From Fidelibacterota bacterium (GTDB lineage Bacteria; Pseudomonadota; Alphaproteobacteria; Rhodospirillales; Rhodospirillaceae), in assembly GCA_947476895.1 (NCBI GenBank), contig CANJRX010000004.1, positions 1 through 64,000 on the forward strand: DNA of 64,000 nucleotides, in the 5' to 3' direction. Positions 5,002-31,627 of the stretch are shown here, piece by piece (the first letter of the stretch is position 1; each line of letters starts with the position of its first letter). The translations under genes were made by a program, and so were the position numbers. The notes below the pieces were generated by a model that was given only the letters and a program-made list of their open reading frames with translations, did not search any database and had not been told where the DNA came from.

Positions 5002-5231
5002 CGGTCTTCACTTTTTCGATTAAAGTCACGCCAAGCGGCCCCGTGATGCGAAAGCGAGCGCCCCGGGGCTGGGTCCTTTTGATCGGATTGATCTCGTGGC
5101 TGCAGTATTGCTGGCCTTGAAGCACAACACGACGGGGGCAGCTTTAAAACCCGACCCCGTAAGGCTTTAGGCATATGAATTGTTTGCCAATTCCGCGCTT
5201 CAGGAGAAGAAATATCCCCGCGAGCCGAGAC

Positions 5232-6236
5232 CTAACGTAAACGAGGTGCGTACATCAGGCCGCCGTCGGTCCACAGCCGGTTGGGGCCGCGGTCGAGTTT
5301 GATGGGGCTGCCCGCACCGACGTTGCGGTCATACACCTCGCCGTAGTTGCCCACGGTTTTAATGATGTCGCGGGCCCAGGTTTCTTTCAGGCCCAGCGCT
5401 GCGCCATTGCCTGGAACGACACCTAGAAATTGCCTGATCTCAGCGTCTTCGCGCAGCGCATCCACGTTCTGCGACGTGATGCCGTATTCCTCGGCCACGA
5501 TCATCGCAAAGATGCTCCAGCGCACTATTTCGAAGAACTGATCGTCGCCCTGGCGCACCAGGGGCGCTAGGGGTTCTTTCGAGATCATCTGCGCCAGAAT
5601 GTCATAAGTTTCGACGCCGCCTTTCATAGCGACGCGCCACGCAGCAATCATTGAAACATCGGCCGAAAACGCAACGCAGCGCCCTGCTGCCAGAGCCTGA
5701 TCGAGTTGGGGTGCGTTCTTCACCGGCACGGGCGTGACGGTTACATTCTGCGCCGTAAAGTACGACGTCATCGTTTCAGCGTGCAGCTCTTGGTCATGCA
5801 CGCAGACAGCTTTACCGGCGAGTTGTTTAGGGTCGGTCACATCGCTTTTGCGCGGCACGAGGAATCCCTGGCCGTCATAAAATGTGATCGGTCCGAACAT
5901 CAGGCCATTGCTCGTTGCCCGCGTCAGCGACCAGGTGATGCGCCGCGCGACGATATCCATCTCGTCGGACTCTTTGAGCTGCGCAACGTTCTGCGCCATG
6001 ACGAATTTGACCTTGTCGGGGTCGCCAAATATGGCCGCGGCTACGGCCCGGCAGATGTCCACATCCATGCCGTGGTAACGGCCGGCGTTATCCGTCGCAG
6101 CGAAGCCCGCAACGACCGGCCAGACACCGCAGGCCACCGCCCCGCGCGCGCGTATCGTCTCAAGACGGCTGGCGTGTGCAAAGCTGGGCCAGGATATGGC
6201 CAAAACGATAGCAATCCATCGCAACGCTTGTTTCAC
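5232..6236 (-). CDS. Periplasmic amino-acid-binding protein (SBP family 3, AapJ-like)
   Basis: A 334-residue solute-binding protein. The GTG start at 6236 gives a clean signal peptide (VKQALRWIAIVLAISWPSFA, then HA); the frame stays open further upstream but without a sensible start. The mature protein has the AapJ signature order: RLETIRARGAVACGV, GMDVDICRAVAAAIFGDPDK, ITWSLTRATSNGLMF, FYDGQGFLV. AapJ-type proteins deliver amino acids to ABC permeases. No permease or ATPase gene is adjacent, so it is an orphan here. Its position between cysD and the cys/siroheme operon suggests, but does not show, a sulfur-containing ligand. Confidence 0.8.
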   Translation of the reverse strand: MKQALRWIAIVLAISWPSFAHASRLETIRARGAVACGVWPVVAGFAATDNAGRYHGMDVDICRAVAAAIFGDPDKVKFVMAQNVAQLKESDEMDIVARRITWSLTRATSNGLMFGPITFYDGQGFLVPRKSDVTDPKQLAGKAVCVHDQELHAETMTSYFTAQNVTVTPVPVKNAPQLDQALAAGRCVAFSADVSMIAAWRVAMKGGVETYDILAQMISKEPLAPLVRQGDDQFFEIVRWSIFAMIVAEEYGITSQNVDALREDAEIRQFLGVVPGNGAALGLKETWARDIIKTVGNYGEVYDRNVGAGSPIKLDRGPNRLWTDGGLMYAPRLR

Positions 6237-6554
6237 GGGTATCTCGTTCAGTGGTTCTGGTCGCCATCGTACAGCGATAGGCGCTATCCCCAAATAAAAC
6301 CTGAGATTTTGGCCGTTTTATGGGAGTCTCCCGCTAGCCCAAAACGCCGAGAGCGGGGTGGCAAAAAGTAGAAGTTTCTTCTTTTCCCGGCCTAAGACGT
6401 AGGCGAACGTTGTCCGGAACCCTAGGGATACTTCGGGAAGGGGAGAAGATTGTTTCTTCCGTGAGCCTTTTCGCTAATCTGTACCCGCTCGCGATGGTAG
6501 CCGGACCCGCATAAAGGGCGGCTAACCCCACGCATCTCAGAAAAAGGACAGACC

Positions 6555-7361
6555 GTGAGCAGCTTGGATCTTCTTTTCGGCACCGCTTCCGGCGGTGTCA
6601 AAAATGGTGGCACCCGCAAGGTGACGCTGGTCGGCGCAGGCCCCGGCGACCCGGGTCTTTTGACGCGTAAAGGTTACGACGCGATTGTGACCGCGGACGT
6701 GGTGTTTTTCGACGCACTGGTGTCGCCGGAAATCGTCGACCTGTTGCCGGTGCATGCGCGCTGCATCTATGTCGGAAAGCCGTGCAAGTCCGTCGCCATT
6801 TCGCAGGACGATATTATCGATCAACTCATCGCGGCTGCGAAGCCCGGCTTGCGTGTTGTTCGCCTCAAAGGCGGCGACCCGATGGTCTTCGGCCGCGCCG
6901 CTGAAGAAATTCTCGCTCTGCGTGAAGCCGGCGTTGAAGTCGATGTGGTGCCCGGCATCACGTCCGCCAGCGGTGCTGCAGCCTCGACCGGCATCTCGCT
7001 GACACACCGTGATTACGCGGCGCAGGTTTCATTTGTCACCGCGGCGCGCCGCGAAGGTGAACTTGCCGACGTCAAAGGCTTGGCGGGCACCGGCAAGACG
7101 CTGGTGGTTTACATGGGCATCGCCCGCGCGCGCGCGCTCAGCGAAGCGCTGCAGGCCGACGGCGTAGATGCGTTGCTGCCCATCGCTATCGTCGAGAATG
7201 CCACGCGCGCCGATGAGCGTGTGATTATAACAACCGTGGCCGATCTGCCTAAAGCAATCGCAGGCAACGACGTGCGCAGCCCGGCGCTGTTTATCGTTGG
7301 TGAAGTGGTTTGCACCTATGTGCCGGCCGACGTCTCCGCCGACGCTGCCGCGCGCGCCTAA
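6555..7361 (+). CDS. cobA: Uroporphyrinogen-III C-methyltransferase
   Basis: A 268-residue SAM-dependent methyltransferase that converts uroporphyrinogen III to precorrin-2, the branch to siroheme. Visible signatures are VTLVGAGPGDPGLLTRKGYD, the VRLKGGDPMVFGRAAEE loop and VVPGITSASGAAASTGISLT. It has only the methyltransferase domain; the dehydrogenase step is encoded separately at 12330. Start is GTG at 6555 with AAAAAGGACAG upstream. It heads an operon running to 12962. The 260 bases before it contain no gene and should hold divergent promoters for it and the binding-protein gene. Confidence 0.92.
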   Translation: MSSLDLLFGTASGGVKNGGTRKVTLVGAGPGDPGLLTRKGYDAIVTADVVFFDALVSPEIVDLLPVHARCIYVGKPCKSVAISQDDIIDQLIAAAKPGLRVVRLKGGDPMVFGRAAEEILALREAGVEVDVVPGITSASGAAASTGISLTHRDYAAQVSFVTAARREGELADVKGLAGTGKTLVVYMGIARARALSEALQADGVDALLPIAIVENATRADERVIITTVADLPKAIAGNDVRSPALFIVGEVVCTYVPADVSADAAARA

Positions 7362-7371
7362 GGAACACATC

Positions 7372-7689
7372 ATGGCGCAAGTTAAGTCCCAGACCAAAGT
7401 GCTGACTGCCAATCGTCTGCGTAATGGCGAGACGGTGTATTACACGCCTGCCGGAACGTGGTCGCTTTATGTGACCGAAGCCAAGGTGTCGACTACGCCT
7501 GAAGAGGCCGAAGCACTCGCGAAAATTGGTGCAGATGCTTATGCCGCCAATCAGGTGATTGACGTTGCCGTGATCGACGTGGCCCCTGGCAGCGAAGTCA
7601 AACCAACCCATATTCGGGAAGTCATCCGTGCGACCGGGCCGACCGTCCGAACCGATCTCAACAAGCCCGTTGCGCCGCCACAAAGGTGA
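7372..7689 (+). CDS. DUF2849 protein of the sulfite-reduction operon
   Basis: A 105-residue protein matching the DUF2849 family, which is regularly found between cobA/cysG and cysI in Alphaproteobacteria. It opens LTANRLRNGETVYYTPAGTW and continues with a short beta-rich segment. There is no signal peptide, membrane segment or cofactor motif. The ATG at 7372 follows AAGGAACACATC. It ends four bases before the cysI GTG. Its biochemical role is unknown; the constant linkage suggests help in sulfite reductase assembly or electron supply. Confidence 0.8.
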   Translation: MAQVKSQTKVLTANRLRNGETVYYTPAGTWSLYVTEAKVSTTPEEAEALAKIGADAYAANQVIDVAVIDVAPGSEVKPTHIREVIRATGPTVRTDLNKPVAPPQR

Positions 7690-7693
7690 TCTC

Positions 7694-9352
7694 GTGTATA
7701 TCTACGATCAATTCGACCATACCATTACCCGCGAGCGGGTCGCCGAGTTCAGCCAGCAGGTGGTGCGCCGCCTGATTGGTGAGCTGTCGGAAGATCAATT
7801 CCGTCCCTTACGCCTGATGAACGGCCTGTATCTGCAATTGCATGCCTACATGCTGCGCGTTGCGGTTCCTTACGGCACGCTCTCGAGCAAACAGCTGCAC
7901 AAGCTAGCCGATATCGCCAAGAAGTACGACCGCGATTACGCGCACTTCACCACGCGCCAGAATCTGCAATACAACTGGATTAAGCTGGAGCAGGTGCCTG
8001 ACTTGTTGGCTGAATTGGCCAGCGTCGAGATGCATGCCAACCAGACCTCCGGCAATTGCATTCGCAATGTGACGGCCGATCAATTCGCCGGCGTGGCCGG
8101 TGATGAAGTTGAAGATCCGCGCATTATCTCGGAAGTGATCCGCCAGTGGTCCACGTTCCACCCGGAATTCTCGTTCCTGCCGCGTAAATTCAAGTTCGCC
8201 TTGACGGGTGCTGCAAAAGATCGCGCCGCTATTCAGTTCCACGATATCGGCATCCAGATCGTCAAGAACGATGCTGGCGAAATCGGTTACGCCATTTACG
8301 TCGGCGGCGGCATGGGTCGTACGCCGGTCGTGGCGCCCTTGATTAAGCCGTTCGTCGCGCGCTCTGAGTTGCTGTCCTACTTGGAGGCCTGCTTGCGCGT
8401 TTACAACCTGCATGGCCGCCGCGACAATATGTACAAAGCCCGGATCAAAATCCTGGTGCGCGACTTAGGCCCGGCAGAATACGCCCGCCAGGTCGAAGAA
8501 ATGTGGCCCATGACCCGCGCCGCTGGCGTTGATGTGCCCGCGAGCGAAGTTGCGCGCATCGAAGCGTTCTTTGTGCCGCCGGTTTACGAAAAGATTGCCG
8601 AGCCGGTCGCGTCCTTCGTCGCTGCCAAGGCCAAAAGCAGCGCGTTCGCCCGCTGGGTGGAAACCAACGTACATCCGCACAAGGCCGCCGGTTACGGCGC
8701 CGTGACGATTTCGCTGAAGCCCATTGGTGGTATCCCCGGCGATGCGTCCAGCGCGCAGATGCATGCCATCGCCGATTTAGCCGACGCTTACAGCTTGGGC
8801 GAGGTGCGTGTCACGCACGTGCAGAACGTGGTGCTGCCCAACGTTAAGCAAACGGACCTGTTTGCCGTGTGGCAGAAGCTGGGTGAAATCGGTTTTGCCG
8901 ATGGCAACATCGGCCTTGTGACAGACATCATCGCTTGCCCGGGCTTGGATTATTGCTCGCTGGCGAATGCGCGTTCGATCCCCGTGGCGCAGAAACTGAG
9001 CACGTGGTTTGGCGATCTGGATCGCCAGCACAACATCGGGCCGCTGCAGATCAAGATTTCGGGCTGCATCAACGCCTGCGGTCACCATCATGCCGGGCAC
9101 ATCGGCATTCTCGGCGTCGATAAAGCGGGCGTGGAATTTTATCAGATCACATTGGGCGGCGCGGGTGACGAGAAGGCCAGCATCGGTCAGCTGTTGGGTC
9201 CGGGCTTCGCCGGAGAAGATATTGTTGGCGCGGTCGATAAGGTGGTGAACACCTATCTCGATCTTCGCCAATCGCCGGCTGAGACCTTTATTGAAGCCTA
9301 TCGCCGCGTTGGTCCCACCCCGTTCAAGGAGAGCCTCTATGGCCGTCGTTGA
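7694..9352 (+). CDS. cysI: Sulfite reductase hemoprotein (siroheme/[4Fe-4S])
   Basis: A 552-residue assimilatory sulfite reductase (nitrite/sulfite reductase family), six-electron reduction of sulfite to sulfide. The four cluster ligands are visible as C415-x5-C421 (CPGLDYC) and C458-x3-C462 (GCINACGHHH), which bind the [4Fe-4S] cluster bridged to siroheme. Substrate and siroheme arginine segments (HFTTRQNLQ, NQTSGNCIRN) are present. The GTG start at 7694 has AAAGGTGA upstream. No flavoprotein CysJ lies nearby, so the electron donor may be ferredoxin or a distant flavoprotein. It overlaps the next gene by 14 bases. Confidence 0.93.
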   Translation: MYIYDQFDHTITRERVAEFSQQVVRRLIGELSEDQFRPLRLMNGLYLQLHAYMLRVAVPYGTLSSKQLHKLADIAKKYDRDYAHFTTRQNLQYNWIKLEQVPDLLAELASVEMHANQTSGNCIRNVTADQFAGVAGDEVEDPRIISEVIRQWSTFHPEFSFLPRKFKFALTGAAKDRAAIQFHDIGIQIVKNDAGEIGYAIYVGGGMGRTPVVAPLIKPFVARSELLSYLEACLRVYNLHGRRDNMYKARIKILVRDLGPAEYARQVEEMWPMTRAAGVDVPASEVARIEAFFVPPVYEKIAEPVASFVAAKAKSSAFARWVETNVHPHKAAGYGAVTISLKPIGGIPGDASSAQMHAIADLADAYSLGEVRVTHVQNVVLPNVKQTDLFAVWQKLGEIGFADGNIGLVTDIIACPGLDYCSLANARSIPVAQKLSTWFGDLDRQHNIGPLQIKISGCINACGHHHAGHIGILGVDKAGVEFYQITLGGAGDEKASIGQLLGPGFAGEDIVGAVDKVVNTYLDLRQSPAETFIEAYRRVGPTPFKESLYGRR

Positions 9353-18580: not shown

Positions 18581-18817
18581 ATGAGCAACCGGCCAGGCGT
18601 AGAAGATGCTGCAAAAGAAATTCTGCGCATCGCCGTGCGTGAACTTCATCTCACGGCCAATTCACCCATTGGCGCGCAGCCGGTTCTAGAGCGGTTCAAT
18701 AATCTGCCGTGGAAGCCGTCCGATTTGCGCCCGGCGCTGGTCTTCGCGCAGGAGAAAGGCTGGGTGACTCAGGAAGGTCAATTGACCGCAGCCGGCTTTA
18801 GCGCTGCGCCGATTTAG
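18581..18817 (+). CDS. Small hypothetical protein
   Basis: A 78-residue soluble protein, not recognised. It reads as three helices with a possible small winged-helix layout (LERFNNLPWKPSDLRPALVF, then [18 protein letters not shown]). The ATG at 18581 follows GAAAGGATC. Its 3' end overlaps the stop of the convergent multiheme gene by 20 bases. Confidence 0.55.
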   Translation: MSNRPGVEDAAKEILRIAVRELHLTANSPIGAQPVLERFNNLPWKPSDLRPALVFAQEKGWVTQEGQLTAAGFSAAPI

Positions 18818-21800
18818 GGCGTTCGAATTCTAGCTTGCGCTTGATCTCGCCGCGCATGAAATCTTCCATCTTCACATCGTCGGTCACACCCCAGACCTTA
18901 CCGTCGCGTAAGTACAGGATTTGCTGTTCCGTGAGTGTCATGGGACGTGAGCCGAGGCGCCCGAACACCGCGATCTGGTGACCGGTTTCGTCAACCGCGC
19001 GGTCGCGATCCAAACCCTTTGAGAGCGCCAAGGCAGGCCATTTGGTCGGCCACCAGGCAATGATTTCCGGATTGGGATCGGGACTGAAGCCATAGAAGTT
19101 TGGTTGACGTTCGGGTGAAGTGAGCTGCACGACCTTCAAACCATTCGCGCCGTCGGCCACATAGGCAAACAGCGAGGCATTGGTCGTGCCGACGATCACA
19201 TCATGGGCGTCAGTAATCTTTCCATCGCCGGTGAACATCTGAAACAGCTTCGGGTGCTCGGACTTCTCGATATCAATGATTGCTAAACCGTCTTTGCCTG
19301 CTGCGACGTAGGCAAACGTGCGGGCGAGGTAAACTTTGTGCGCATCGGCAAGGGCGATGTCCGCCCCGGCGACGCGCACAGGGTTACGCGGATCGGTGAC
19401 ATCGACGGTATGCAGGCCCGTTTTGTCCGTAACATAGAGATAGCGGAACTGGAGCGCCGTGGCGCGCACGCCGTCAAAAGGCAGGGAGGCGATGACCTGT
19501 GGCTTCAGCGGATCGTTCATATCCAGCACAACGACGCCCGTATCCGTCGCAATATAGAAGACTGTCCCGGCGATGGTGATGTGCTTTGCGCCGTTCAGGA
19601 TGCCGCCTTCGTTCCAGGTGATCGCGCGCTTCAGGAAATTGTTGCGCGCCTCACCGTCGGCCAGGGTGTCCACGTTCACGACGATCAAGCCTTCCACAGC
19701 ATCGGTCACGTAAGCGTAGGAATAAATGGCGTGGATGGGTTGTTCCTGGTTGTCCTCCTGCATCAACTTGCGCTGGGCTTCGCTGCCGTACATGCGCTGG
19801 GGTGCGATGGGTTGGTTCGTCGGCAAAGCCACGCAGGTCGCGTTCTTGCTGGCGACGCGGGTGTTCTGTCCGAGCGGTGAGAAGGGCGCGGTAATGATGC
19901 GTTGGGATACGCCCTTATTGGCGATGGACGCTACGTCATAAACCTGCAGGCCGTCTTTGCCTTCGGCGGCATAAAGATATTCGCCGCGCAGCTGCAGACA
20001 TTGGGTTTCGCCGCCGCCGTGAGTCTGGCTTTCCTTCAGCTTGCGCCCGCGATCCTGGTGCTGTTTGAACCAATCTGGATAGGCGTAGCGATGCAAGTAA
20101 CTGCCGATGACCGCCTGGGGTTCGTCCCACTCCGTCACGTTCACCGCCTCAACACCGCCTTTGCCGCCGACCCAGGCGTTGTAGCCGATGAAGTTGACGA
20201 AGTTGGTCCCCTGCAACAACAGCTGCGCCATGATGGCGTTGTTGTCGTTGTCTTTGGAAACGTGACAATCGGTGCAGGTCTTGGTCTCAGTCTTGCGTTC
20301 CGTGTGCGGGTAATGGGGTGCGAAGGCTTGGCTGGAATAACCCGAGGCCGCTATAGGCGGCTGTTGGATGTAAATCTTCTCGCGGTTGATATTGGTGGAC
20401 GACAGAATGAGCGCCGAGGTCGAACGCACTGGCGCGACCGTATTGCCCTTGGTGGTTTGATGGATGCCGAGCTGAAACATGTCATCGCGCGCTACCTGCG
20501 GATTGTAGGTCGCAAAGTTACGGCTCTCGCCACCTTCAAAGTGGTGACGCTCGGTTTTCCAGTTGGCTTGGATCGGCAGATGGCACCCGGCGCAAGCGGT
20601 CGTCCAGGACAGATGGCACGTATAGCACTCCATTTCATTGGTCTTGTGGGCGCGGTCTTCCGGCTTCACGGCTGGTCCCCATTTCTGGGTGATGCCCATA
20701 CTCATCAGCTTCGCGCGCGCGGCCTTGGCGTTGTAATGGCTGTTGCCGGGATCGACGCTGTCCTTCACCAGGCTCATGTCCCATTCAAGGTTGGGATCGA
20801 CCGCCGAACGCTGGAATAGCTTGCAATCGCGAGCCTCCGTAATGGGCCTATCGCACTCGTTGCCTTTCCATTCAAACCGTTTGCGGCCGTCCTGCACGCG
20901 CAAGGTCGTGAGGTCGAAACCGCCGGCCCGCGCCGCCGGACCTGACGTGCGCAAATTGGGATATTTGTCGGCATCGCCATGGCAATCGATGCAGCGAATT
21001 TCGATGGCATTGGCGACTTCGCCTTGAATGTACCCATTGCCGTGGGAGTCTTGTGCGAAGTGGCAGTCCACGCACTGCATGCCCTTTTCCACGTGAATCG
21101 ATTTGAGCTGCACGGTCTTGTCCCACTTGTGCGGATCGTCATGGGCGACTTTGACGCCGTCTTTATCAAGCAGGTTACCCTTCCGGTCCTTCTTGAAGAT
21201 CGCGCGGAAGTTCCAGCCGTGGCCGTGATAATCGGCGAACTGCGTATCTTTCAGCGTGGGGTTCAGCTTGCTGACGTCTTTCAGGAATTCGACGTCGGCC
21301 CATTTGCCGCGCGTGGCGGCTTCTTCTGGGTTGCGCTCTAAGGTTTCGTGCATCTTGTCGGCGCTGGGATACTGCTGCTTCTCCGGCCACATGGCGGGTG
21401 CGTCGGACTCGTAGTCCCACATGGTGTAGCCCAGCATCGAGTTCAGGAAGATGTTGGGTTGGTGCATGTGGCAGACCATGCACTGGCTGGTGGGAATGGC
21501 GCGCGTGAAGCCGTGTTGCAGCGGATGGCCGGACTCATTCTTCGGAATGGTCGGGTCTTTGGTCTGCGTGGTGCCGGTATTGCCAAACTGCGCATATGGC
21601 CCGCTGTGGGCTTTGTCGCGATCGTTGGCATAGATAACATGGCACGATGCGCAGCCCGAATGGCGATAGTCGCCCGGCTGATCGTTGGTGCCGATAAACC
21701 ACGTATAGGGATCATTCAGCCGCGACTTATGAATGTTGATGCTGGGAACAGCGATGCGCAAACCTGTGCCGGGTCCGCGATTGCTCTGGCGGATATCCGG

Positions 21801-22634
21801 GCGGCCCGGTTCTTCCAGACGCGAGATGTTGCCCAGCAATGTTTGCGTATTGGGCAATCCAATTTCCGGAAACTGCGTGCCGATGTTGCGACCGCCGCGT
21901 TCGAAGACGCGGAAGATGTCGCCGGGCGGTGTGGTCTCCCACGCCGGCAGGGGATTAAGGCCGGGCAAAATGCCGCGCTTCTGCGTCATCCACGGCTCAA
22001 TCTTGCCGGGGCTTTTGATGAAAGCGCTTTCGCCCTCGCGTGTGTAAGCCTCGCCCAGGATGTAATTCTTGAAGGGCAGGATGCCGTTGTTATAGGTCGC
22101 GCCGCCCCACAGCATGGCGCCGGTGGACATCAAGCTGCGTTCGGTGGCTTGGATTTCCTCGACGTGACAGGCACCGCAGGCTTCACGCGCTACGCGGTAG
22201 TCAGACGGATTTATGAAGCGGATGAATTCCGGGCTTTCGCGATTGAGCAGGGTGTAGCTGCGCTCCGGGTTCGCGCTTTTGGGATAGTGCCAGGCTTCGG
22301 GAAACAGCGGCTGCACGTGGGCTTTATCGAGCACTTCGCGATAGCCGTGCGCGGCTTTATCTGTGCCTGCGGGCAGCACTACTTTCGGATCGCCGCCGTG
22401 ACAATCGATACAGCCCAGCTTGATGCCCGGGTTAGCGTGCATGCTCGGCATGTCGGTGGTGGAATGACACGAGAGACAGCCCGCACTTTTGGCGTCTGCA
22501 TCTTCTTGCGCCTGCTGACGTGGTGCGGGCGAATAGAAGGGATAGGTAATATGACGCGCGGTCTCGCCATGTCCGGCGGCTTGCGCGGATGCGCTCAGGA
22601 GCAATGCACCAAGTATGATGAGTGCGTTCTTCAT
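18798..22634 (-). CDS. Large exported decaheme cytochrome c with C-terminal LVIVD propeller
   Basis: A 1278-residue protein, last gene of the redox operon. A signal peptide ([20 protein letters not shown]) is followed by ten CXXCH sites between about residues 53 and 793: CLSCH, CIDCH, CGACH, CASCH, CMVCH, CVDCH, CIDCH, CYTCH, CAGCH, CTDCH. From about 880 to 1190 run LVIVD-type repeats ([50 protein letters not shown]), which form a beta-propeller seen in surface and periplasmic proteins. ATG at 22634 is preferred; a TTG at 22643 overlaps the previous stop. No lipobox, so it is periplasmic or fully exported. The partner barrel is encoded immediately upstream. Confidence 0.88.
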
Positions 22635-22639
22635 GATGC

Positions 22640-24373
22640 TCAATACGTCAGGATCAGGTTGAAGAGCGCGGAATAGAATACTTTGCCACGCGTATCGAAC
22701 AACGCATCAAAAGCTTTGCCACCCGACAACACCGCACCGGACGCGCGGAACGCGACGTTCTGAATGAAGGTGGGCCGGTAGACCGCGGATACCGATGTAT
22801 CCCAGCCGATCGCCTTGGAGGCGAGGGGTTGATTGCGCAGTACCTCGATCACGGCCTTCTTGGCGAACCACAGGTGGTTCACATTGGCCGAGATGCGTAG
22901 TTCCGGCAGCACGTCGAAATCCGCGCCCGCGCCCAGCAGCATGGTGCCAGGGTTCACAAAGTTCGACTGGCCCTGTTCCTTGGATGGCCGCAGGCTGTTC
23001 AATACACCATTGCGCGCTGATAATGCCACGCCACCGCCACCCACCAACGGTACCGGCTGGCGGATCCAGTAGCTGGTTTCCGCGCCGGCGAATTGCGGGT
23101 TCTCGAAGATGGCGTCGAAACCCGTTGCCGTATTGTCGAAGGGGTCGCTATCGCCCGAGGCATACAAGGCCTGACCGCGCACACGAATCCAGCTGAAATC
23201 CATAGATGGTTCAACGGCCCCAAAGAAGGCGCGGATCTTTGCGCGTTCAGGGCGCGTACGCGAGGTGAAAGGGTTGGCGCTGATGTTGCCGACCACGCCG
23301 TAAAGTGAATGGGTTAGGTTGAAACGTCCAAAGTGACCGTCGCCGTTGAAGCCAATGTAAACGGCGTCGTAGTTAAGCGGGCGCTCATAGCCGATGGATA
23401 CGGGACGCTCGAGGAAACCGTTCTTGTTATAGAACGGCGCGTCGTTTGCCTCACGGTTGCGGTTGTAGACGACGATTGCCTGCGAGGTATAACCCGTGAC
23501 CGGCAAATCCTGCCAATAGAGATTGGCGAAAAACACATCGTCGTCGCGTGGGCGCTTGGCGACATCGTTGAGGCCGGAGTTGGTGTCTTTCTCCAAACGC
23601 CGCATCCAACCCAGATTGTACTGAATGCGGTTGTTGTTGCGGTTGCCGAACAGACGCACGCCCAGCTGCTGGTCGAGAAACAGAAAGCCGCGGAAATCCA
23701 GGTTCACCGGCTGAATGCCGATGCGGATCGAATCAAAGTCGAAGCGGTCCGAGACGTTGCGCAGGTGGTAGTCTAGGAAGGCTTCTTGCAGCCCGACATG
23801 CGCGTCGGTGCGGACGTGGCCGGCCAGCGGATCGACGCGCAGCAAGCGGTCTTCCTTCACGGCGACACGGTTGTAGTTCAGCACCGGTGTGATGCGGACT
23901 TCATAGTCTGGCGGCCGGAAGGCCGTGTCGCCTTTGATGAATGACAGCGACGGAATGATGCTCTCAACGAAAATGTTCTGACTAATGCGCCCGAACTGGT
24001 CGACGGACCCGGCGGACGCCCCTTGCGGGCTCACCGGTACCGGCAATCCGCGCAGTTCGTATATGGTGTCCGACACAACGCCGACATTGATGAACCAGTC
24101 ATCAAACAGCGGGCGGTCGGCTTTCAGAGTGTTTTGGTTGTAAGGATCCCACCAGTTGGTCTTGACGCCGACGGCATCCACCAACCGCCAACGGTCGGGC
24201 ACAGGCAGGCTTTCGCGCGGTACATCACGCATGGGTGGTGATACGGCATTGGGGTCGATAGGCGGCAAGTCGGGCGCGGTTTCAACACCGGGGCGGCGGC
24301 GGGCCGGTTCTTCCTGCGCATGCGCGACAGCGCACGCTGTCAACAGGAGTGCGCCGATTACTTGCCGGAGCAT
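22640..24373 (-). CDS. Outer-membrane beta-barrel protein of the redox operon
   Basis: A 577-residue exported protein: signal peptide MLRQVIGALLLTACAVAHA, a Pro-rich linker, then alternating amphipathic strands ending in FSALFNLILTY-like sequence with a C-terminal aromatic residue, as outer-membrane barrels have. Strand-like segments (FGRFNLTHSLYGVVG, MDFSWIRVRGQALYASGD) recur throughout. I see no CXXCH and no close match to MtrB or PioB. Sitting between cytochrome genes and overlapping its upstream neighbour by 16 bases, it is the likely barrel of a porin-cytochrome conduit. That role is inference. Confidence 0.75.
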   Translation of the reverse strand: MLRQVIGALLLTACAVAHAQEEPARRRPGVETAPDLPPIDPNAVSPPMRDVPRESLPVPDRWRLVDAVGVKTNWWDPYNQNTLKADRPLFDDWFINVGVVSDTIYELRGLPVPVSPQGASAGSVDQFGRISQNIFVESIIPSLSFIKGDTAFRPPDYEVRITPVLNYNRVAVKEDRLLRVDPLAGHVRTDAHVGLQEAFLDYHLRNVSDRFDFDSIRIGIQPVNLDFRGFLFLDQQLGVRLFGNRNNNRIQYNLGWMRRLEKDTNSGLNDVAKRPRDDDVFFANLYWQDLPVTGYTSQAIVVYNRNREANDAPFYNKNGFLERPVSIGYERPLNYDAVYIGFNGDGHFGRFNLTHSLYGVVGNISANPFTSRTRPERAKIRAFFGAVEPSMDFSWIRVRGQALYASGDSDPFDNTATGFDAIFENPQFAGAETSYWIRQPVPLVGGGGVALSARNGVLNSLRPSKEQGQSNFVNPGTMLLGAGADFDVLPELRISANVNHLWFAKKAVIEVLRNQPLASKAIGWDTSVSAVYRPTFIQNVAFRASGAVLSGGKAFDALFDTRGKVFYSALFNLILTY

Positions 24374-26223
24374 ACGTTCTGCTCCCGCGAATTATTGAAA
24401 GGCGTGAACGGGCACTGCACATAGCGCGGGTTCAGTTTGCCGATCGACAGCGTATCAGCGCGCTTGCTTGCGGGCGCGTTGCTGATTGAACCTAACGCTA
24501 GGCCTGCGTTGTGCAGACCCAAGAAGGCAATCATGTCGTCCTGATCGACGCCGTCGCCGGAAATGCCGATAGCGCCGATCAGCGCCTCGCCGCGGTAAAT
24601 CGGCACGCCGCCCGGGAAAATCTGTAAGCCGTTAGCAAGCCGCGTCGGGCCCGGGCCGGGACCAGCAGCCGCAGACTGCGGCAGTTTAGTGCAGCCTTGC
24701 GGCGGTGCGGCGCTGCCGTCGAGGCGCGCAACGATATCTGCGAGCACGAGGTCCAACTGCAAACCGTCGTTAAAAGGACTCCAGGTCGCGAAGGGCTTAC
24801 TCAAGGGGCCGTTGGTTTTGCTTTCGATACCATCGGGATAGAAGGGCCGCGCCAGCAAACCAATAGTGCGGTTGCCGTAAGCGATACCGTCGGTAAGCGC
24901 CGTTGCGCTCACAAAAGCCTGAAAGGCATCGGCATAGGTACCGAGTGCGGGCGTACTGAGTTGGCCGGGTAGGATGATCTCCGCCGGAACCGCGCGCAGT
25001 TCGGCGGCCGTCGTTGTGCGGCTGAAGAACAACACGCTGCGGGCTTTTTGCAGCGACACGTCTGTGCCGAACACCGGTGCATCGGGCGTGCGCGCGACGG
25101 CGAGGATGTTGGATTCCGCATCCACCACCGAGACAGTCACTTGCGCGTAGCTGCCAAGCGGACGGCGGATTTGGGCGCGGGCGCGGAAAGCGACTTTCAA
25201 AGCTTCCGTAACCAGCGTGCGCACTTCCGTCGCTGCCAGAGCGTTGCCGATAGGCGCGAAACCGCCGCGCGGCGCATAGCGGTTGTTGCCCGCGCCGTCA
25301 TCCAGCACCCAGGAATCAACGCCGGGATAAGCCGTGCGATTGTCAAAACGAACGCCAGATCCCGCCGTACCAAAAGCCGCGCCAGCGCGGCGTCCTGCCG
25401 GCGTGTATCCGGCGATGGCGATGTAATTAGCCGCGTTGACTGTGGTCGGCGTGGAAGATTTCAAATCGCGCTTGTCTACGTCGGCGTAGCCCAGGAATTT
25501 ACCGTCGGCAGTGATGCGGCTGGTGATATCCAGCGGTGGCTCGAAACCTTGCTGGGCGGCGACGCCAATCAACTCATCGGTATTGCGGTCGTAGTCATCA
25601 ACCTTGATATCGAGACCATAGACGCCGTCGAACAGCACGCCGACGCCGCCGACAACCTGGCCATCTTTATAAAGCGGCAAACCACCAGGATCCGCCGATA
25701 GACCGAGTGGTGAACGACGTGGACCGATGCCGGCGCTGTCGCCGAAGCGCATGAGGTCTGAACACGCCAGCTGACTGAACTGCACGCCGAACAGCGGGCC
25801 GCTGGGTGTGTTCTTTTCGCCGGGATTGAAATGCTCCTGCACGATCTGGCTGGCCGTGCGTGTTGTAAAAGCATTGCCCGACGACGACAGATAAGCGCCG
25901 GTGATGGCCTTTGAGATGGCCCCAAAGGTGGACGGCAGAATGCTGATGGACTCTAGGCCGTTATTCACCGGGATACCGCGCCCGGAGGTGATCGTCATCA
26001 AGGGCACGTTGGCAGGGTTTGTCGCATAGACGCCGAGCACATTGCCGACGCGGTCTACGACAGCGATGGCGCCGTTGGCAGCTCCTTGCGCCGAGGCTTC
26101 TGCCAAGGCTTGGCCTACGATCTTGTCTACATCGGCAACAGTGAGGCTGGGCACGGTTTGCGCGTTCGCAGCCAGGCTGAAGGTCAGGGCGAATAAAAAT
26201 GAGAAGCGCGCGGCAATTCTCAT
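24358..26223 (-). CDS. Exported tandem HbpS/GlcG (DUF336) protein
   Basis: A 621-residue protein with a signal peptide (cleavage after SLAANA). Two HbpS/GlcG-type domains are visible by their shared core: N-terminal DVDKIVGQALAEASAQGAAN with PGGLPLYKDGQVVGGVGVLF, and C-terminal VTEALKVAFRARAQIRRPLG with PGGVPIYRGEALIGAIGISG. HbpS proteins bind heme or iron outside the cell; GlcG-like domains also occur with oxidoreductases. Unlike the usual 140-160-residue proteins this is a fused pair with a long insert in each half. It overlaps the gene before by four bases and the barrel gene after by 16. Heme binding here is unproven. Confidence 0.8.
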   Translation of the reverse strand: MRIAARFSFLFALTFSLAANAQTVPSLTVADVDKIVGQALAEASAQGAANGAIAVVDRVGNVLGVYATNPANVPLMTITSGRGIPVNNGLESISILPSTFGAISKAITGAYLSSSGNAFTTRTASQIVQEHFNPGEKNTPSGPLFGVQFSQLACSDLMRFGDSAGIGPRRSPLGLSADPGGLPLYKDGQVVGGVGVLFDGVYGLDIKVDDYDRNTDELIGVAAQQGFEPPLDITSRITADGKFLGYADVDKRDLKSSTPTTVNAANYIAIAGYTPAGRRAGAAFGTAGSGVRFDNRTAYPGVDSWVLDDGAGNNRYAPRGGFAPIGNALAATEVRTLVTEALKVAFRARAQIRRPLGSYAQVTVSVVDAESNILAVARTPDAPVFGTDVSLQKARSVLFFSRTTTAAELRAVPAEIILPGQLSTPALGTYADAFQAFVSATALTDGIAYGNRTIGLLARPFYPDGIESKTNGPLSKPFATWSPFNDGLQLDLVLADIVARLDGSAAPPQGCTKLPQSAAAGPGPGPTRLANGLQIFPGGVPIYRGEALIGAIGISGDGVDQDDMIAFLGLHNAGLALGSISNAPASKRADTLSIGKLNPRYVQCPFTPFNNSREQNVCSGK

Positions 26224-26624
26224 GGCGCATCCACCGTCAGCGTGCCGGATTTAAGGCCATCGGCCGTGCGATAGGCGACAGTGAAACTCACGGGATAAAA
26301 CAACCCATCCGGCAGACGGCCAAAAATATGAAAGACCAGTTTTCCATCGGCGGGTGTGACGGCCACGTTATCAAGCTTGAGCGCATCGCCGTTCCAAGGC
26401 GCCCACAGTCCGTCAGAACCCTGCATCAGCGGCTGATTATTTTGAAAGCGCGCGATGATGTGCGTGGTCGTGGGCAGGTCATCACCGATGTCGACGGCGA
26501 TATCCAGACCTTCTTTTAGCGCGGCAGCTTTCTCACGCCCCAGATTGGCGTCCGTTGCCGATAGCGTTGCGGCGAACGCAGACGTCGGCAGCAGCATTGT
26601 GAGCGCGGTGATAAACGCTCTCAT
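26220..26624 (-). CDS. Small exported beta-rich protein of the redox operon
   Basis: A 134-residue protein with a signal peptide (MRAFITALTMLLPTSAFA) and a mature part that looks like one beta-sandwich (FQNNQPLMQGSDGLWAPWNG, KLVFHIFGRLPDGLFYPVSF). I do not recognise the family, and it has no cysteine or heme motif in the mature part. The ATG at 26624 overlaps the cytochrome stop (TGATG), and the gene end overlaps the next start (ATGA), so it is translationally coupled on both sides. That argues for a structural or assembly role in the same complex. Confidence 0.65.
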   Translation of the reverse strand: MRAFITALTMLLPTSAFAATLSATDANLGREKAAALKEGLDIAVDIGDDLPTTTHIIARFQNNQPLMQGSDGLWAPWNGDALKLDNVAVTPADGKLVFHIFGRLPDGLFYPVSFTVAYRTADGLKSGTLTVDAP

Positions 26625-28390
26625 CAAGGCTGCTCCGCGCGCGACTGTGCCGACGCGTGAATTTGACGAAGCGCTGCGCCCGCATCGGCAGCTTTTTCCG
26701 AACGCATGGGACCAAGGTCTTTGCGGTGGAAGCGGTGGCAATCAACACAGGTCGAGGGTACGCGGTCGGCGGCTTTCTCCCCGCCGTGACAGGACTGGCA
26801 CACTGTAATGCTAGGCATCAGGACGTCGGTGGAGGCATTTGACGTTTTGGCGGCATGACATTCCGTGCACGGCACATCGGTGTGACGGGCGTGGGTGAAG
26901 TAGGCCTTTGGCATCCAGAGCGTGGTGACCGTGGGCGGTTCTACCGTCCAGATTTTCGACCCAGACGCGTCGGTTCCATTTGTATCAAAGGTGCGGTGAC
27001 ATTCTTCGCACAGGCCGCGTCCAAATCGGCCATTCAGCACGGCCGCTGTTTTTGTCGCGGCCCAATCGGTGACTTGTTGTTTTTCGACGGGCGTCAGCGA
27101 TGTGCCGGGCATGCGGCGCAGCACGGCGGGCGCTTCTGGTTCGGTGTAGCCGCCGCGCATGGCCAGGGCGTCATAAACGTCACGCACTTGCTTGAAGACT
27201 TCTTCCGGTTTTCCGTGCGTAAGTTCGCGGTCCGTCACAAAGGTGTCGAACTTCAACGCATGGCAGCCGTGGCAGTTCCGCTCAAAGGAAATGGCCTGCA
27301 TGGTTTCGCCGGTCTCGTTGGGCGTATGGCAGTCGGCGCATTGCAAGGTCACAACGCCGCGCGCAGGGTCCTTCACACCCGTCGCGCGCAGATGTTTGTC
27401 GTGCGGGAATTTAAGACCGGAGTTCTCTTGAGGACCGGGTGTGGCCCCCACGGCACGGCTACGATCCATGGCGTGCAGCGCCGGGTCTTTGACGACGGTC
27501 GGGTGAAATTCCGGGTGATGCTCTCCGAAATCCGAAGCGCTGCCCAAAGTGCTACGGGTGGTTTTGGCCGCCATATCGTTGTGGCAGTCGGCGCAGAAGC
27601 GCTCGTTGCTGAGAACGATTGTCGCGTTACCCTGATGTTCCTTATGGCAGCTTTGGCAGGACGCTCCTGAAAGATCGGCAAAGGGAAACAGCGCAGGCTG
27701 GGCGTGATTTTGAATGCCGTTGTGGCAGCTTAAACAGGCCTGATCTTTGACCTGCACGAAAGGTTTTTCGTGACAGCTGCCGCAGGAATCGCCGAAGAAT
27801 TTGTGGGCCGCGGAAATGGTGCCGCTATTCCAAACGCCGGTCGGTGCCGCCAGGTAGTTCTGTTTTCCGGGTGTAAGGGCCAGTTTGTCGGGTGGCGGCC
27901 CAATCAGAAGATTGAACACAAAAGGCACAATGAACGTGCCGAGGAGCACGGCGCTCGCCAGCAACCAGGTCCACTGGCGCATAGTCAGGCCCATGCGCGT
28001 GATGTGAATCTTGGAGCGCGCGACCAGTTTTTCCAGGTCGTCGCCTAAGGCCTGGATAAGCTCCACCGCCAGGATGACATCGAACTCGGCGGTTTTTTCC
28101 TGCGGTTGGATTTCGTAAGGGCCGACGCGTACTTTGCCGCCCACATCGACCTTTGCAACCTGCGTCAGGCTTTCATCAACCCTTAAATCAGCGCCGGTCG
28201 CGGCGGCCACGTAAAGTTCGCCACTGCGGAGCGTGAATTCGGCGTGATGAAGCATGACGCGTGGATCGGGCAGGTGGATGGCGCAGTCGTTGCCGCGGCC
28301 GACTGTGATCTTCTCGCCTTCAGCCACTTCATCGCGGACGGCGGTGCCGCCTCGGCTTTTGCGTGTGACGTAGCGGATAAGGCTGCGCAC
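26624..28390 (-). CDS. FHA-domain inner-membrane-anchored decaheme cytochrome c
   Basis: A 588-residue three-part protein. Residues about 20-95 are a cytoplasmic forkhead-associated domain (ITVGRGNDCAIHLPDPRVML, HHAEF), which binds phosphothreonine. A single membrane helix spans 141-163. The periplasmic part holds ten CXXCH sites at 203, 219, 245, 266, 351, 373, 461, 508, 531 and 548, with extra histidines suited to bis-His ligation. There is no cleavable signal peptide; the helix anchors it. It lies six bases downstream of the cytochrome b gene and would take electrons from it into the periplasm. A phospho-sensing domain fused to a multiheme cytochrome is unusual. Confidence 0.87.
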   Translation of the reverse strand: MRSLIRYVTRKSRGGTAVRDEVAEGEKITVGRGNDCAIHLPDPRVMLHHAEFTLRSGELYVAAATGADLRVDESLTQVAKVDVGGKVRVGPYEIQPQEKTAEFDVILAVELIQALGDDLEKLVARSKIHITRMGLTMRQWTWLLASAVLLGTFIVPFVFNLLIGPPPDKLALTPGKQNYLAAPTGVWNSGTISAAHKFFGDSCGSCHEKPFVQVKDQACLSCHNGIQNHAQPALFPFADLSGASCQSCHKEHQGNATIVLSNERFCADCHNDMAAKTTRSTLGSASDFGEHHPEFHPTVVKDPALHAMDRSRAVGATPGPQENSGLKFPHDKHLRATGVKDPARGVVTLQCADCHTPNETGETMQAISFERNCHGCHALKFDTFVTDRELTHGKPEEVFKQVRDVYDALAMRGGYTEPEAPAVLRRMPGTSLTPVEKQQVTDWAATKTAAVLNGRFGRGLCEECHRTFDTNGTDASGSKIWTVEPPTVTTLWMPKAYFTHARHTDVPCTECHAAKTSNASTDVLMPSITVCQSCHGGEKAADRVPSTCVDCHRFHRKDLGPMRSEKAADAGAALRQIHASAQSRAEQP

Positions 28391-28396
28391 GGGCGG

Positions 28397-29218
28397 TTAC
28401 CAGTAATAAAACACCGTCACCACATGGGTGACGAGTGCGGCCAAGGTGGCGACGGAAAACGGCACGTGCACATAAAGCCAAACGCGCAACAGGCACCGCA
28501 GCTGCACGTCGCGGCGAATGCGTTTCAGAAGGTCTTCTTTGCGGATCAGGCGCGTCAGCAATTGGCGGCGTTGCGGTCCGTGGTCGCCGGACGTGCTGCT
28601 TTCGACAAAGTGCCGTGCCATGGTGGTGGGGCAATGTTCGTCAAAGCCACGCAGCTGTTGAAACACCGTTCCGCCGACGATGGTGTCTTGCGTGGATTTC
28701 AGCGCCGCGGCGTTGGTAGCGTCGTCCATCGTCATGGCGATCTGGCGCACGTCGCGATCCAGCTCGGCGATCTGGCCCAGCATGACCTCGGTTGAAAGGC
28801 CTTTGCGGTTCTCGGTCAGAAGTAACGGATAGCGCACGTAGAAATATAGCCCCACCATGCCGCTAATGATCGTCACCATCATCAACACATACAGTATCGA
28901 ATGGATGTTCAGGCCCACCTGGAAGCCCGAGTGCAGGGTAGCGATGAGTGCGAGGGCCGTGCCGAGGTAGATGTGGGCGGATAGCCAATCTTCCAATGAG
29001 ACTTTGCCCACGCCGTAACGGCGTTTGCGAATACCGAACCACGCCAGCCAAATCATCAGGCCGCCCGCGATACAGCCAAGCGTGTATCCCAACCACGTGC
29101 CGCCGTTGGGCGCGCCGAGCGGGCGGTCAATCAGGTAAATGCCAACGCTGACAGCCGCGAGCACAAGCGCCCACTTCAGGTAGCGGTGATTGCGATAGAC
29201 CAGGATCGACTCATGCAT
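28397..29218 (-). CDS. Di-heme cytochrome b membrane protein
   Basis: A 273-residue inner-membrane protein with five hydrophobic helices (about 15-30, 42-62, 81-99, 106-130, 246-270). Histidines at 82 and 96 in helix 3 and at 251 and 265 in helix 5 are each 14 residues apart, the spacing of two stacked b hemes across a membrane. A soluble cytoplasmic loop of about 110 residues lies between helices 4 and 5. It resembles ferric-reductase or b561-type quinol/cytochrome couplers only in layout. It sits between the Fe-S flavoprotein gene (12-base gap) and the decaheme gene, fitting electron transfer across the membrane. Confidence 0.78.
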   Translation of the reverse strand: MHESILVYRNHRYLKWALVLAAVSVGIYLIDRPLGAPNGGTWLGYTLGCIAGGLMIWLAWFGIRKRRYGVGKVSLEDWLSAHIYLGTALALIATLHSGFQVGLNIHSILYVLMMVTIISGMVGLYFYVRYPLLLTENRKGLSTEVMLGQIAELDRDVRQIAMTMDDATNAAALKSTQDTIVGGTVFQQLRGFDEHCPTTMARHFVESSTSGDHGPQRRQLLTRLIRKEDLLKRIRRDVQLRCLLRVWLYVHVPFSVATLAALVTHVVTVFYYW

Positions 29219-29230
29219 GATGCGTGATCC

Positions 29231-31627
29231 CTAGCCTGACAGCGTTGCGACGGACATGAACTCTTCCGGGCTCACACGCAGTGCTGCGCCAGTCGGGCAC
29301 GCGCGCACACACGATGCGCCGCCGGGAATGCCTTTGCACATGTCGCATTTTACCGCGCGCTTAGTCTTCTCGCCGTGATCATACCCGTTGTTGCCCTTGT
29401 AAGTCATGGCTTCGCCGGGCGCGGGGCCTTTGCCGAACAACAGCCACGAGAAGATGTTGAACTTCTCGTCAGGCGGATAAGCCAGTTGGATGACTTTGTA
29501 GGGGCAGTTCTGTTCGCAATTGCCGCAACCGATACAGCTGTCGTCGATGTAAACCTCTCCGCCCGGTGTGCGGTGAATGGCATTGGGCGGGCAGTCGGAC
29601 ATGCAGTGGGGATGCTCGCAGTGACGGCAGGATGTCGGTACATGCAATGTGGCGAAGGTCGGTCCGGCTTCCCGGTCCAGCCTTGAAATGCCGCCGTGGG
29701 TTTCAGCGCAGGCCTTTTCGCAATTGTCGCAATGAACACAAAGCGACTCATCGATCAGCAGCACGTCTGTGCCTTCGCCGACACCTTGCGCGATCAGGAA
29801 CTCGATGATGTTGCCGGCTTCGGGCTGCTTCTGCATCTGCTCGTTGGCTTTGATGCGCTGGCGGAATTTGGCTTCGACGTTAGCCTTCAACGTCGGGCTG
29901 CGATCGAGCAGGCTTTTGAAGGCGTCGCCCTTGATGCAGACAGTCTCGGTGTTGTGCGCGGCTTTGACCGTGGCCGAGCGCGGCATATCCGCGAGCAGCG
30001 CCATCTCACCGATGTAGTTGCCTGAGGGCACATAGCTCAGCACCACATCCTTGCCGCCGACGCGCATGGATACCGTGCACGATCCTGAGCGGATCAGGTG
30101 CATGTGGTCGCCCTTATCGCCTTGCGCAAAGATCACGTCGCCGGCTTTGAACTTCTGGATCTCAGCCGTTTCGACCAGTTCCATTAAGTCGGCAGCGGGC
30201 ACGCCCGGCGCGAGATGAGTCTGCACCTGACGCATGATCGCCACTTGATCCAGCGTACGGCGCACGCTGTCGACGGACTGCACCAGTTTCAACATCGTGC
30301 GGCGCGGCGTTTCAAACACGACACAATCACTGGCGGCGACAACGGTCGCGGAACGCCGGCGGCCTGAAATCAAACCCATCTCACCGAAGAACGCGCCGGG
30401 TCCGAGCGTGACGACTTTGCTGGGATCATTGGCGTCGATCTGAATGCCGACGGTGCCGCGCAAAACCGTGAAGAACGAACTGGTGTAATCGTTGCGTTTA
30501 AAGATCGTCGCGCCGGTCTTCAGCACATGGGTGTCGGAGTCCAGCATGGCTTCGCGCAATTGCAGCGGGTTCAAGCTGTGCCACACCGGAATGACTTCGC
30601 GGATTTCCGCCAGCACATCTTCAACGTTCGCCGGCTTCAGCCCGGCGAATTTACGTTCCAACAACGGCTGGTCGGCGGGCGCGATGGGGTTACCGACGAT
30701 GTACTCGACCACCTCATAGCCCTGGTTCATAGCCTGTTTGATCAGCGGATAACCGCCGAGCGCGCCGATGATATAAAGGCCCGGCACGTTGGACTCATAG
30801 GTCGAGCTGACTTCGGGCAACGACGTACGGTCTTCGTTGGGAAACTTGATGCCGCAGGATTCAACAAACTTGCGCGGGGCCGCCGCACCCAGGCGCGCAA
30901 TAATGCGGTCGCAAACCACGCGCGCCTGACCGTCGGCGGTGTTGAGAATGATCGCGTTCTCTTCGATCTTCGCAGTCTCGGCGCTGTGATAAACCTGGAT
31001 ATCACCCTTCTCGATAGCGTTGGTGATCAGCGTCAGGTTGCCCTGTTTGATGCGCGCGAATTCGCTTGAGCGATTGATCAGGATGACCGTGTTCTGTTTC
31101 GACAACGCGATGGCGTTCTCAATGCCTGCATCACCCGCGCCAATCACGACAATGGTTTCGGCTTCGTAAGCGTCGGGATCGTCTAACTGATACTGCACAT
31201 GCGGCAGATCGGCGCCCTCACAACGCAGCTTGTTGAGGTTGCCTTGCAAGCCGATCGCCAGCACGACGTTCTCAGCTTGGATCACTGCGCCGTCGGCTAG
31301 CTTCAATTTGAAAACCGCGCCGTCTTTTGTCACGGCGGTGACATCAGACTTATAGCGAACGTTGGCCTTCACGCCTTCGATCTGTTTGTTCCAATTGTCG
31401 AGAATGGTTTCGCGTTTGCCGGCACTGAATGTCACGTCGGCGCGCAAAGGCAGCACGTCAGGCGTTGCCATGACGTATTTGCCTTTTTGATATTTGTAGA
31501 TCGTGTCGGACAGGTGATCCGTGCGCTCGAGCAGCACGTGACTCACACCTGATTTCGCGGCGTGGGCGGCAGCACTCAGGCCGCCGGGCCCTGACCCGAC
31601 GATCGCGATCTTATAAGTATCCCCCAA
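29231..31627 (-). CDS. NAD(P)H-type flavoprotein fused to two cNMP-binding domains and a four-cluster ferredoxin
   Basis: A 798-residue cytoplasmic fusion, first gene of the operon. Residues 1-310 are a thioredoxin-reductase-like oxidoreductase with FAD (GSGPGG, 11-16) and nucleotide (GAGDAG, 163-168) motifs; no CxxC redox disulfide is evident. Two cyclic-nucleotide-binding domains follow (phosphate cassettes FGEMGLISGRRRSATV at 414 and IGEMALLADMPRSATV at 539). The C-terminus (620-785) is a PsrB/HybA-like ferredoxin with 16 cysteines: 630/633/636/640, 667/670/675/679, 698/701/704/708, 761/764/773/777. The start is TTG at 31627 with GAGGA upstream; the frame is closed by a stop just before. 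cNMP control of electron entry is inferred. Confidence 0.87.
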   Translation of the reverse strand: MGDTYKIAIVGSGPGGLSAAAHAAKSGVSHVLLERTDHLSDTIYKYQKGKYVMATPDVLPLRADVTFSAGKRETILDNWNKQIEGVKANVRYKSDVTAVTKDGAVFKLKLADGAVIQAENVVLAIGLQGNLNKLRCEGADLPHVQYQLDDPDAYEAETIVVIGAGDAGIENAIALSKQNTVILINRSSEFARIKQGNLTLITNAIEKGDIQVYHSAETAKIEENAIILNTADGQARVVCDRIIARLGAAAPRKFVESCGIKFPNEDRTSLPEVSSTYESNVPGLYIIGALGGYPLIKQAMNQGYEVVEYIVGNPIAPADQPLLERKFAGLKPANVEDVLAEIREVIPVWHSLNPLQLREAMLDSDTHVLKTGATIFKRNDYTSSFFTVLRGTVGIQIDANDPSKVVTLGPGAFFGEMGLISGRRRSATVVAASDCVVFETPRRTMLKLVQSVDSVRRTLDQVAIMRQVQTHLAPGVPAADLMELVETAEIQKFKAGDVIFAQGDKGDHMHLIRSGSCTVSMRVGGKDVVLSYVPSGNYIGEMALLADMPRSATVKAAHNTETVCIKGDAFKSLLDRSPTLKANVEAKFRQRIKANEQMQKQPEAGNIIEFLIAQGVGEGTDVLLIDESLCVHCDNCEKACAETHGGISRLDREAGPTFATLHVPTSCRHCEHPHCMSDCPPNAIHRTPGGEVYIDDSCIGCGNCEQNCPYKVIQLAYPPDEKFNIFSWLLFGKGPAPGEAMTYKGNNGYDHGEKTKRAVKCDMCKGIPGGASCVRACPTGAALRVSPEEFMSVATLSG

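Follow-up and report, generated by a model that had tools for sequence, protein, structure and literature searches.

A conserved operon of a cell-envelope electron-transfer system in Proteobacteria

The window analysed here is a 64,000-nucleotide stretch of an alphaproteobacterial genome (Rhodospirillaceae; GenBank assembly GCA_947476895.1, contig CANJRX010000004.1, positions 1 to 64,000), in which seven genes with many predicted heme and iron-sulfur sites follow one another on the minus strand between positions 18798 and 31627. These genes raise the question of whether they encode one system, to which described systems it is related, and in which direction it would carry electrons. The original prediction, made from the sequence alone, had described a seven-gene operon for an apparently undescribed electron conduit between NAD(P)H and the cell surface. 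We found that this operon is real and that, together with an eighth gene nearby, it constitutes a cell-envelope electron-transfer system that recurs across hundreds of genomes of Proteobacteria.

Gene set, cofactor sites and conservation

Conservation of the neighbourhood among relatives had been named in advance as the check on which the prediction could fail, and the neighbourhood was found to be conserved: 27 of the 28 full-length named loci, i.e., those with 10 kb on either side, carry genes for the flavoprotein, the cytochrome b, a decaheme cytochrome c with an FHA domain (FHA-decaheme), the HbpS/GlcG-like protein, the outer-membrane barrel and a decaheme cytochrome c with an LVIVD beta-propeller (decaheme-LVIVD). 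We refer to the first three as the inner module and to the last three as the outer module. A species-level scan, with one genome per species, detected relatives of decaheme-LVIVD in at least 593 stretches, in Alpha-, Beta- and Gammaproteobacteria. Among 289 genomes of the window's class, decaheme-LVIVD was present in 20 and FHA-decaheme in 27, with all 20 falling within the 27 (Fisher p 2.6e-25).

The seven open reading frames overlap or are separated by no more than 12 nt. Each of the two decaheme cytochromes contains ten CXXCH motifs, 20 in total, compared to fewer than 0.05 per protein expected by residue shuffling. The flavoprotein combines, by its Pfam matches, a YpdA/TrxR-like FAD/NAD(P) domain with two domains binding cyclic nucleotide monophosphates (cNMP) and four [4Fe-4S] clusters. 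Its 16 predicted cluster cysteines were invariant in 24 relatives, most of which also keep the Glu and Arg of both cNMP phosphate-binding cassettes; profile matches in the PDB were to YpdA, to PKA/PKG regulatory domains and to hydrogenase-type ferredoxin subunits. As no signal peptide is visible, the flavoprotein is predicted to be cytoplasmic. The cytochrome b, with five predicted transmembrane helices, carries W-X3-H-X13-H on helices TM3 and TM5 and SGXXG on TM4, and the motif histidines were invariant in 15 relatives. The original prediction had counted seven same-strand genes with overlaps or short gaps, 20 CXXCH sites, two b-heme histidine pairs and 16 cluster cysteines, and these counts were all confirmed.

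FHA-decaheme contains a single transmembrane helix at residues 145-163. Across 25 relatives its ten CXXCH motifs did not vary, apart from a single His absent in one sequence, and ten additional His, which can act as second heme ligands, were conserved in the same set (nine invariant, one at 90% or more). The Ser, His and Asn with which an FHA domain usually binds phosphothreonine are not conserved among relatives, and we therefore rejected the role of a phosphothreonine reader as improbable for this domain. Genes for a PP2C phosphatase and an FHA protein adjoin the cluster in some gammaproteobacterial loci. Two further loci (L150, 3052-6420; L151, 6850-10203) encode a fusion of flavoprotein and cytochrome b of about 1120 residues, followed by an FHA cytochrome with 9 CXXCH; neither the window's type of outer module nor a PCC4-like one (see below) was found in these two genomes.

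In the outer module, profile matches of the HbpS/GlcG-like protein were to the EfgA, GlcG-type and NahX structures. The AlphaFold2 model of the barrel predicts 18 strands with a mean pLDDT of 81.4. The nearest solved fold was AlgE (Z 28.3, root mean square deviation 2.8, 358 aligned residues), followed by the Occ/OprD channels (Z 22-26); the fold search returned no MtrB-type match, which is not evidence of absence. The barrel of MtrB has 26 strands. The reading frame of decaheme-LVIVD opens with TTG at 22643; translated from the ATG at 22634, the protein has 1278 residues and begins with a normal signal peptide. All ten CXXCH motifs were invariant in 14 relatives, and the protein is the best conserved of the operon's set. 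A lipobox pattern was detected in 1 of 80 relatives and not in the window's protein, which is therefore no MtrC-like lipoprotein. Its model has a good C-terminal propeller and a poor heme half (mean pLDDT 52.4), and the fold search with it returned propellers only.

As to the membership of the set, the six large genes of the original prediction stood, whereas its small exported protein did not belong to the core and an eighth partner had been missed. That partner is a pentaheme cytochrome of the C554 type, whose four CXXCH motifs and single CX4CH motif were conserved across 52 sequences. It lies on the opposite strand, with an MFS transporter gene between it and the decaheme-LVIVD gene. Of 80 named loci, 54 contain it, and in many of them it comes immediately after decaheme-LVIVD; it is a conserved partner of the operon. 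The small exported protein, detected in 11 of the 80 loci, mostly in Alphaproteobacteria, is accessory.

Table 1. Genes of the electron-transfer cluster and their positions in the window
Gene product	Position	Strand	Basis
Flavoprotein, 798 aa	29231..31627	-	Pfam FAD/NAD(P) oxidoreductase, two cNMP_binding, Fer4
Inner-membrane cytochrome b, 273 aa	28397..29218	-	5 transmembrane helices, two HX13H heme-b pairs
FHA-transmembrane-periplasmic decaheme c, 588 aa	26624..28390	-	Pfam FHA, Cytochrome_C7, c3
Small exported protein, 134 aa	26220..26624	-	Translation with signal peptide
Tandem HbpS/GlcG-like exported protein, 621 aa	24358..26223	-	PF03928, two stretches
Outer-membrane barrel, 577 aa	22640..24373	-	AlphaFold2 model, 18 predicted strands
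Decaheme c with LVIVD beta-propeller, 1278 aa	18798..22634	-	Pfam LVIVD and Cytochrome_C7; signal peptide
C554-type exported pentaheme c, 442 aa	15924..17252	+	PF13435; outside the seven-gene span

The decaheme-LVIVD tree broadly tracked classes and orders, which suggests that the system is an old one; recent horizontal transfer was rejected as a general explanation for the same reason. Three metagenome-assembled genomes (MAGs) that bear the titles Mycobacteriaceae, Vicinamibacteria and Bordetella parapertussis (L096, L113 and L119, respectively) carry decaheme-LVIVD genes inside a mostly betaproteobacterial clade, a placement that points to probable mixing or mislabelling of these bins. In the window's own genus and family the distribution is patchy, with FHA-decaheme found in 0 of 14 sampled relatives. 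The outer genes of Sphingobium and Sphingopyxis are located on megaplasmids, and the megaplasmids that encode decaheme-LVIVD in sphingomonads are conjugative. The full set of Sphingobium herbicidovorans MH is encoded on plasmid pMSHV, where its annotation is generic only. On this replicon, a conjugative megaplasmid, two-partner secretion genes of the ShlB/FhaC family flank the cluster (L154, 485-8638 and 28098-29777), one of them followed by a 6.3-kb exoprotein-sized gene.

Several kinds of genes adjoin the cluster in other loci. Genes for cytochrome c maturation (CcmC-, CcmF- or CcmI-like) were detected next to it in Betaproteobacteria (L074, L077, L083, L091, L095, L099 and L104), CHASE2-type cyclase genes in three loci (L095, L120 and L129), and genes for calcineurin-like, CpdA-like phosphoesterases in five loci and in most members of a sphingomonad-like family. 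The cyclase and phosphoesterase neighbours fit the conserved cNMP domains, which is circumstantial. In the window, a class III adenylate/guanylate cyclase gene is located at 52034-53797, approximately 20 kb off the operon, and genes for sulfate assimilation, i.e., a CysN/C-type GTPase-APS kinase, a PAPS reductase and a nitrite/sulfite reductase, at 2162-9352.

Described porin-cytochrome systems and alternative outer modules

With an outer-membrane barrel gene beside multiheme cytochrome genes, the locus is a porin-cytochrome cluster (PCC) in the broad sense. The set and order of its genes are unlike those known for MtrCAB, PioAB, FoxEYZ and Cyc2, in agreement with the original prediction, while the claim that the system was apparently undescribed did not hold, in view of the PCC3/PCC4 signature of the cytochrome b, the PCC4 composition of related clusters and a recently reported group of PCCs from karst. 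PCC4 is a predicted porin-cytochrome cluster in which cytochromes of 4, 5 and 10 CXXCH are joined by a putative porin and by a protein of the inner membrane; in PCC3 and PCC4 the latter has five transmembrane helices, with WX3HX13H on TM3 and TM5 and SGXXG on TM4 (He et al. 2017; PMC5566968). The window's cytochrome b has exactly this signature, and the window also encodes, like PCC4, a decaheme (FHA-decaheme), a cytochrome with 4 CXXCH (the C554-type protein, with its additional CX4CH) and an iron-sulfur redox partner. The difference is in the outer part, where the HbpS-like protein, the 18-strand barrel and decaheme-LVIVD take the place of the pentaheme and porin.

In other alphaproteobacterial genomes, inner genes of the window's type are accompanied by those for a pentaheme and for a putative porin, which gives the 4 + 5 + 10 set. 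Of the 27 genomes with FHA-decaheme, seven lack the decaheme-LVIVD gene; two of these are fragmentary, and the other five (G253, G405, G208, G200 and G268) all encode a different pentaheme cytochrome. In three loci (L034, L046 and L053) this pentaheme is adjacent to the inner genes and is followed by a heme-free exported porin-like protein, with no flavoprotein gene adjacent in L053. When eight genomes with the window's outer module were tested for the different pentaheme, it was detected only in G308 (L041; G308:C2:171355-173001), which thus carries the PCC4-like pentaheme in addition to the decaheme-LVIVD set and so has both outer modules; the window's genome gave no match. The two outer modules appear unrelated: blastp and phmmer detected no relation between the window's barrel and the PCC4-like porin (hhalign probability 0.3%), nor was any relation detectable between the window's decaheme and the PCC4-like pentaheme, and their kinship was rejected. 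An outer module was also looked for in the non-alphaproteobacterial genomes G435, G460 and G569 and not found. Taken together, the comparison of gene sets indicates that a common inner module, made up of the flavoprotein, the cytochrome b, FHA-decaheme and usually the C554-type cytochrome, is combined with alternative outer modules, and the alternative combination would correspond to PCC4, as judged by composition and motif signature.

The window's own combination probably corresponds to the 'Group 1' of eleven PCCs from karst MAGs, in which the gene of a large decaheme adjoins that of a porin with about 20 strands, seven of the eleven also having a ferredoxin-NADP reductase (PMC13264449, June 2026). 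This likeness is one of description: the window has a decaheme gene of 3.8 kb, a barrel of 18 strands and a flavoprotein nearby, whereas the paper gives no detail on FHA, LVIVD or cNMP domains, no definition of an inner module and no distribution. In the literature outside subscription journals, no other description of FHA or HbpS with multiheme cytochromes was found.

MtrCAB, MtoAB and PioAB share with the window the general combination of a barrel, decaheme cytochromes and an inner-membrane electron donor; however, the window has no surface lipoprotein cytochrome, its barrel is predicted to have 18 and not 26 strands, and its operon includes an NAD(P)H flavoprotein. Membership of the MtrCAB type was rejected, as the two decahemes scored 34.6 and 14 bits against the MtrA/DmsE family TIGR03508, far below its cutoff of 192. 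The selenite/tellurite operon extHIJKLMNOPQS of Geobacter, whose ExtI is a proposed selenite-selective channel porin (PMC5877670), resembles the window in having an outer-membrane porin, several multiheme c cytochromes and an inner-membrane cytochrome b, together with a weak resemblance to ExtM: the heme region of decaheme-LVIVD scored weakly against the ExtM equivalog in 14 of 14 relatives, and the window's protein reached 82 bits, below the curated cutoff of 800. In contrast, that operon includes a rhodanese, a selenoprotein and ExtO, which is reported to be of the Rieske type, and the hemes of its ExtM number 12 (PMC5877670).

Direction of electron flow and end of the chain

We favour, with moderate confidence, an NAD(P)H-driven system of two parts that would transfer electrons outward across the envelope. 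NAD(P)H would reduce the FAD of the cytoplasmic flavoprotein, from which electrons would pass to the four [4Fe-4S] clusters and, through the ferric-reductase/NOX-like di-heme cytochrome b, across the inner membrane to the membrane-anchored periplasmic decaheme. The soluble pentaheme would then relay them across the periplasm, and the outer part, composed of the barrel, the HbpS-like protein and the decaheme-propeller protein, would take them up for the reduction of a substrate located at the outer membrane or beyond it, while cAMP or cGMP would probably tune NAD(P)H oxidation through the cNMP domains. HX13H pairs are common to ferric reductases, NAD(P)H oxidases and the PCC3/PCC4 inner-membrane family (PMC5566968), and because those of the window are of the ferric-reductase/NAD(P)H-oxidase type, they fit an outward flow. 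The reading is further supported by the invariant ligands in all redox subunits, by the conservation of the gene set, and by the genes for cytochrome c maturation, cyclases and phosphoesterases that adjoin the cluster in relatives. The sequences show the cofactor sites, the conserved set of genes and a predicted barrel fold; the order and outward direction of electron transfer, passage through the outer membrane, the substrate and cNMP gating are inferred. Of the chain from NAD(P)H to the surface that had been predicted originally, the part from NAD(P)H to the periplasm is made plausible by the cofactors.

Several observations weigh against outward transfer to the surface, most of them in the outer part. 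The barrel is predicted to be narrower than MtrB and may pass a solute instead of sheathing a cytochrome; decaheme-LVIVD has no lipid anchor, and its heme region, with approximately 80 residues per heme, is not wire-like and was modelled unreliably. Furthermore, the FHA domain looks degenerate, and only some of the loci have cyclase or phosphoesterase genes nearby. The points that concern the outer part lead to the main rival, which has a real chance although we would not expect it to be right: the chain would end in the periplasm, with the barrel admitting a specific anionic substrate, decaheme-LVIVD acting as a periplasmic reductase or oxidase, and the HbpS-like protein binding the substrate or heme. 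It would parallel what has been proposed for selenite and tellurite and the porin ExtI of Geobacter, and is supported by the weak ExtM score, by the closeness of the barrel fold to AlgE and the Occ carboxylate channels, by the signal peptide without a lipobox, and by the high conservation of decaheme-LVIVD, as would be expected of an enzyme. Nevertheless, a beta-propeller and an always-adjacent barrel would also suit a surface complex, and no substrate-handling enzyme or transporter consistently adjoins the locus.

An inward chain, in which an extracellular donor such as Fe(II) or Mn(II) would feed the outer module and ultimately quinone or NAD(P)+, is in our view unlikely. PCC4 was modelled with inward electron flow by He et al., who detected it in oxidisers of Fe(II) and in bacteria of drinking-water filters (PMC5566968), and the relatives of the window's locus include a MAG of Haliea that came from a biocathode. 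However, RuBisCO was not found in the window's genome (97.7% completeness), most named relatives are in genera known as organotrophs (e.g., Duganella, Steroidobacter, Dokdonella and Sphingobium), and reduction of NAD(P)+ from such donors would be uphill without an energy input, of which none was identified. Outward flow is favoured over inward flow by the missing RuBisCO, which would suit a heterotroph that has electrons to dispose of, and by the large number of organotrophs among the carriers. The annotation of the HbpS-like family as heme-degrading and the ferric-reductase-type motifs of cytochrome b also allow for heme or iron acquisition, in which the surface module would bind or reduce ferric iron or heme and the HbpS-like protein would take part in heme handling. 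We consider this highly improbable, as 20 to 25 c-hemes would be a large outlay for iron uptake and neither a TonB-dependent receptor nor a Fur-type partner is a recurrent neighbour of the locus.

A broader proposition, which we regard as doubtful, extends the outward reading: cNMP-tuned, NAD(P)H-driven electron export to the surface, with interchangeable outer modules, may be widespread among aerobic heterotrophic Proteobacteria that are not known for extracellular electron transfer. If true, trans-envelope electron transfer would have a long history and be common among the ordinary Proteobacteria of soil and water, and a single NAD(P)H-linked inner module would serve alternative outer modules. 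The defined gene set, the conserved ligands and the plasmid-borne copy in Sphingobium herbicidovorans MH make direction and substrate testable in that organism, and the cNMP domains raise the possibility, likewise testable, of a tie between second-messenger signalling and redox flow in the envelope.
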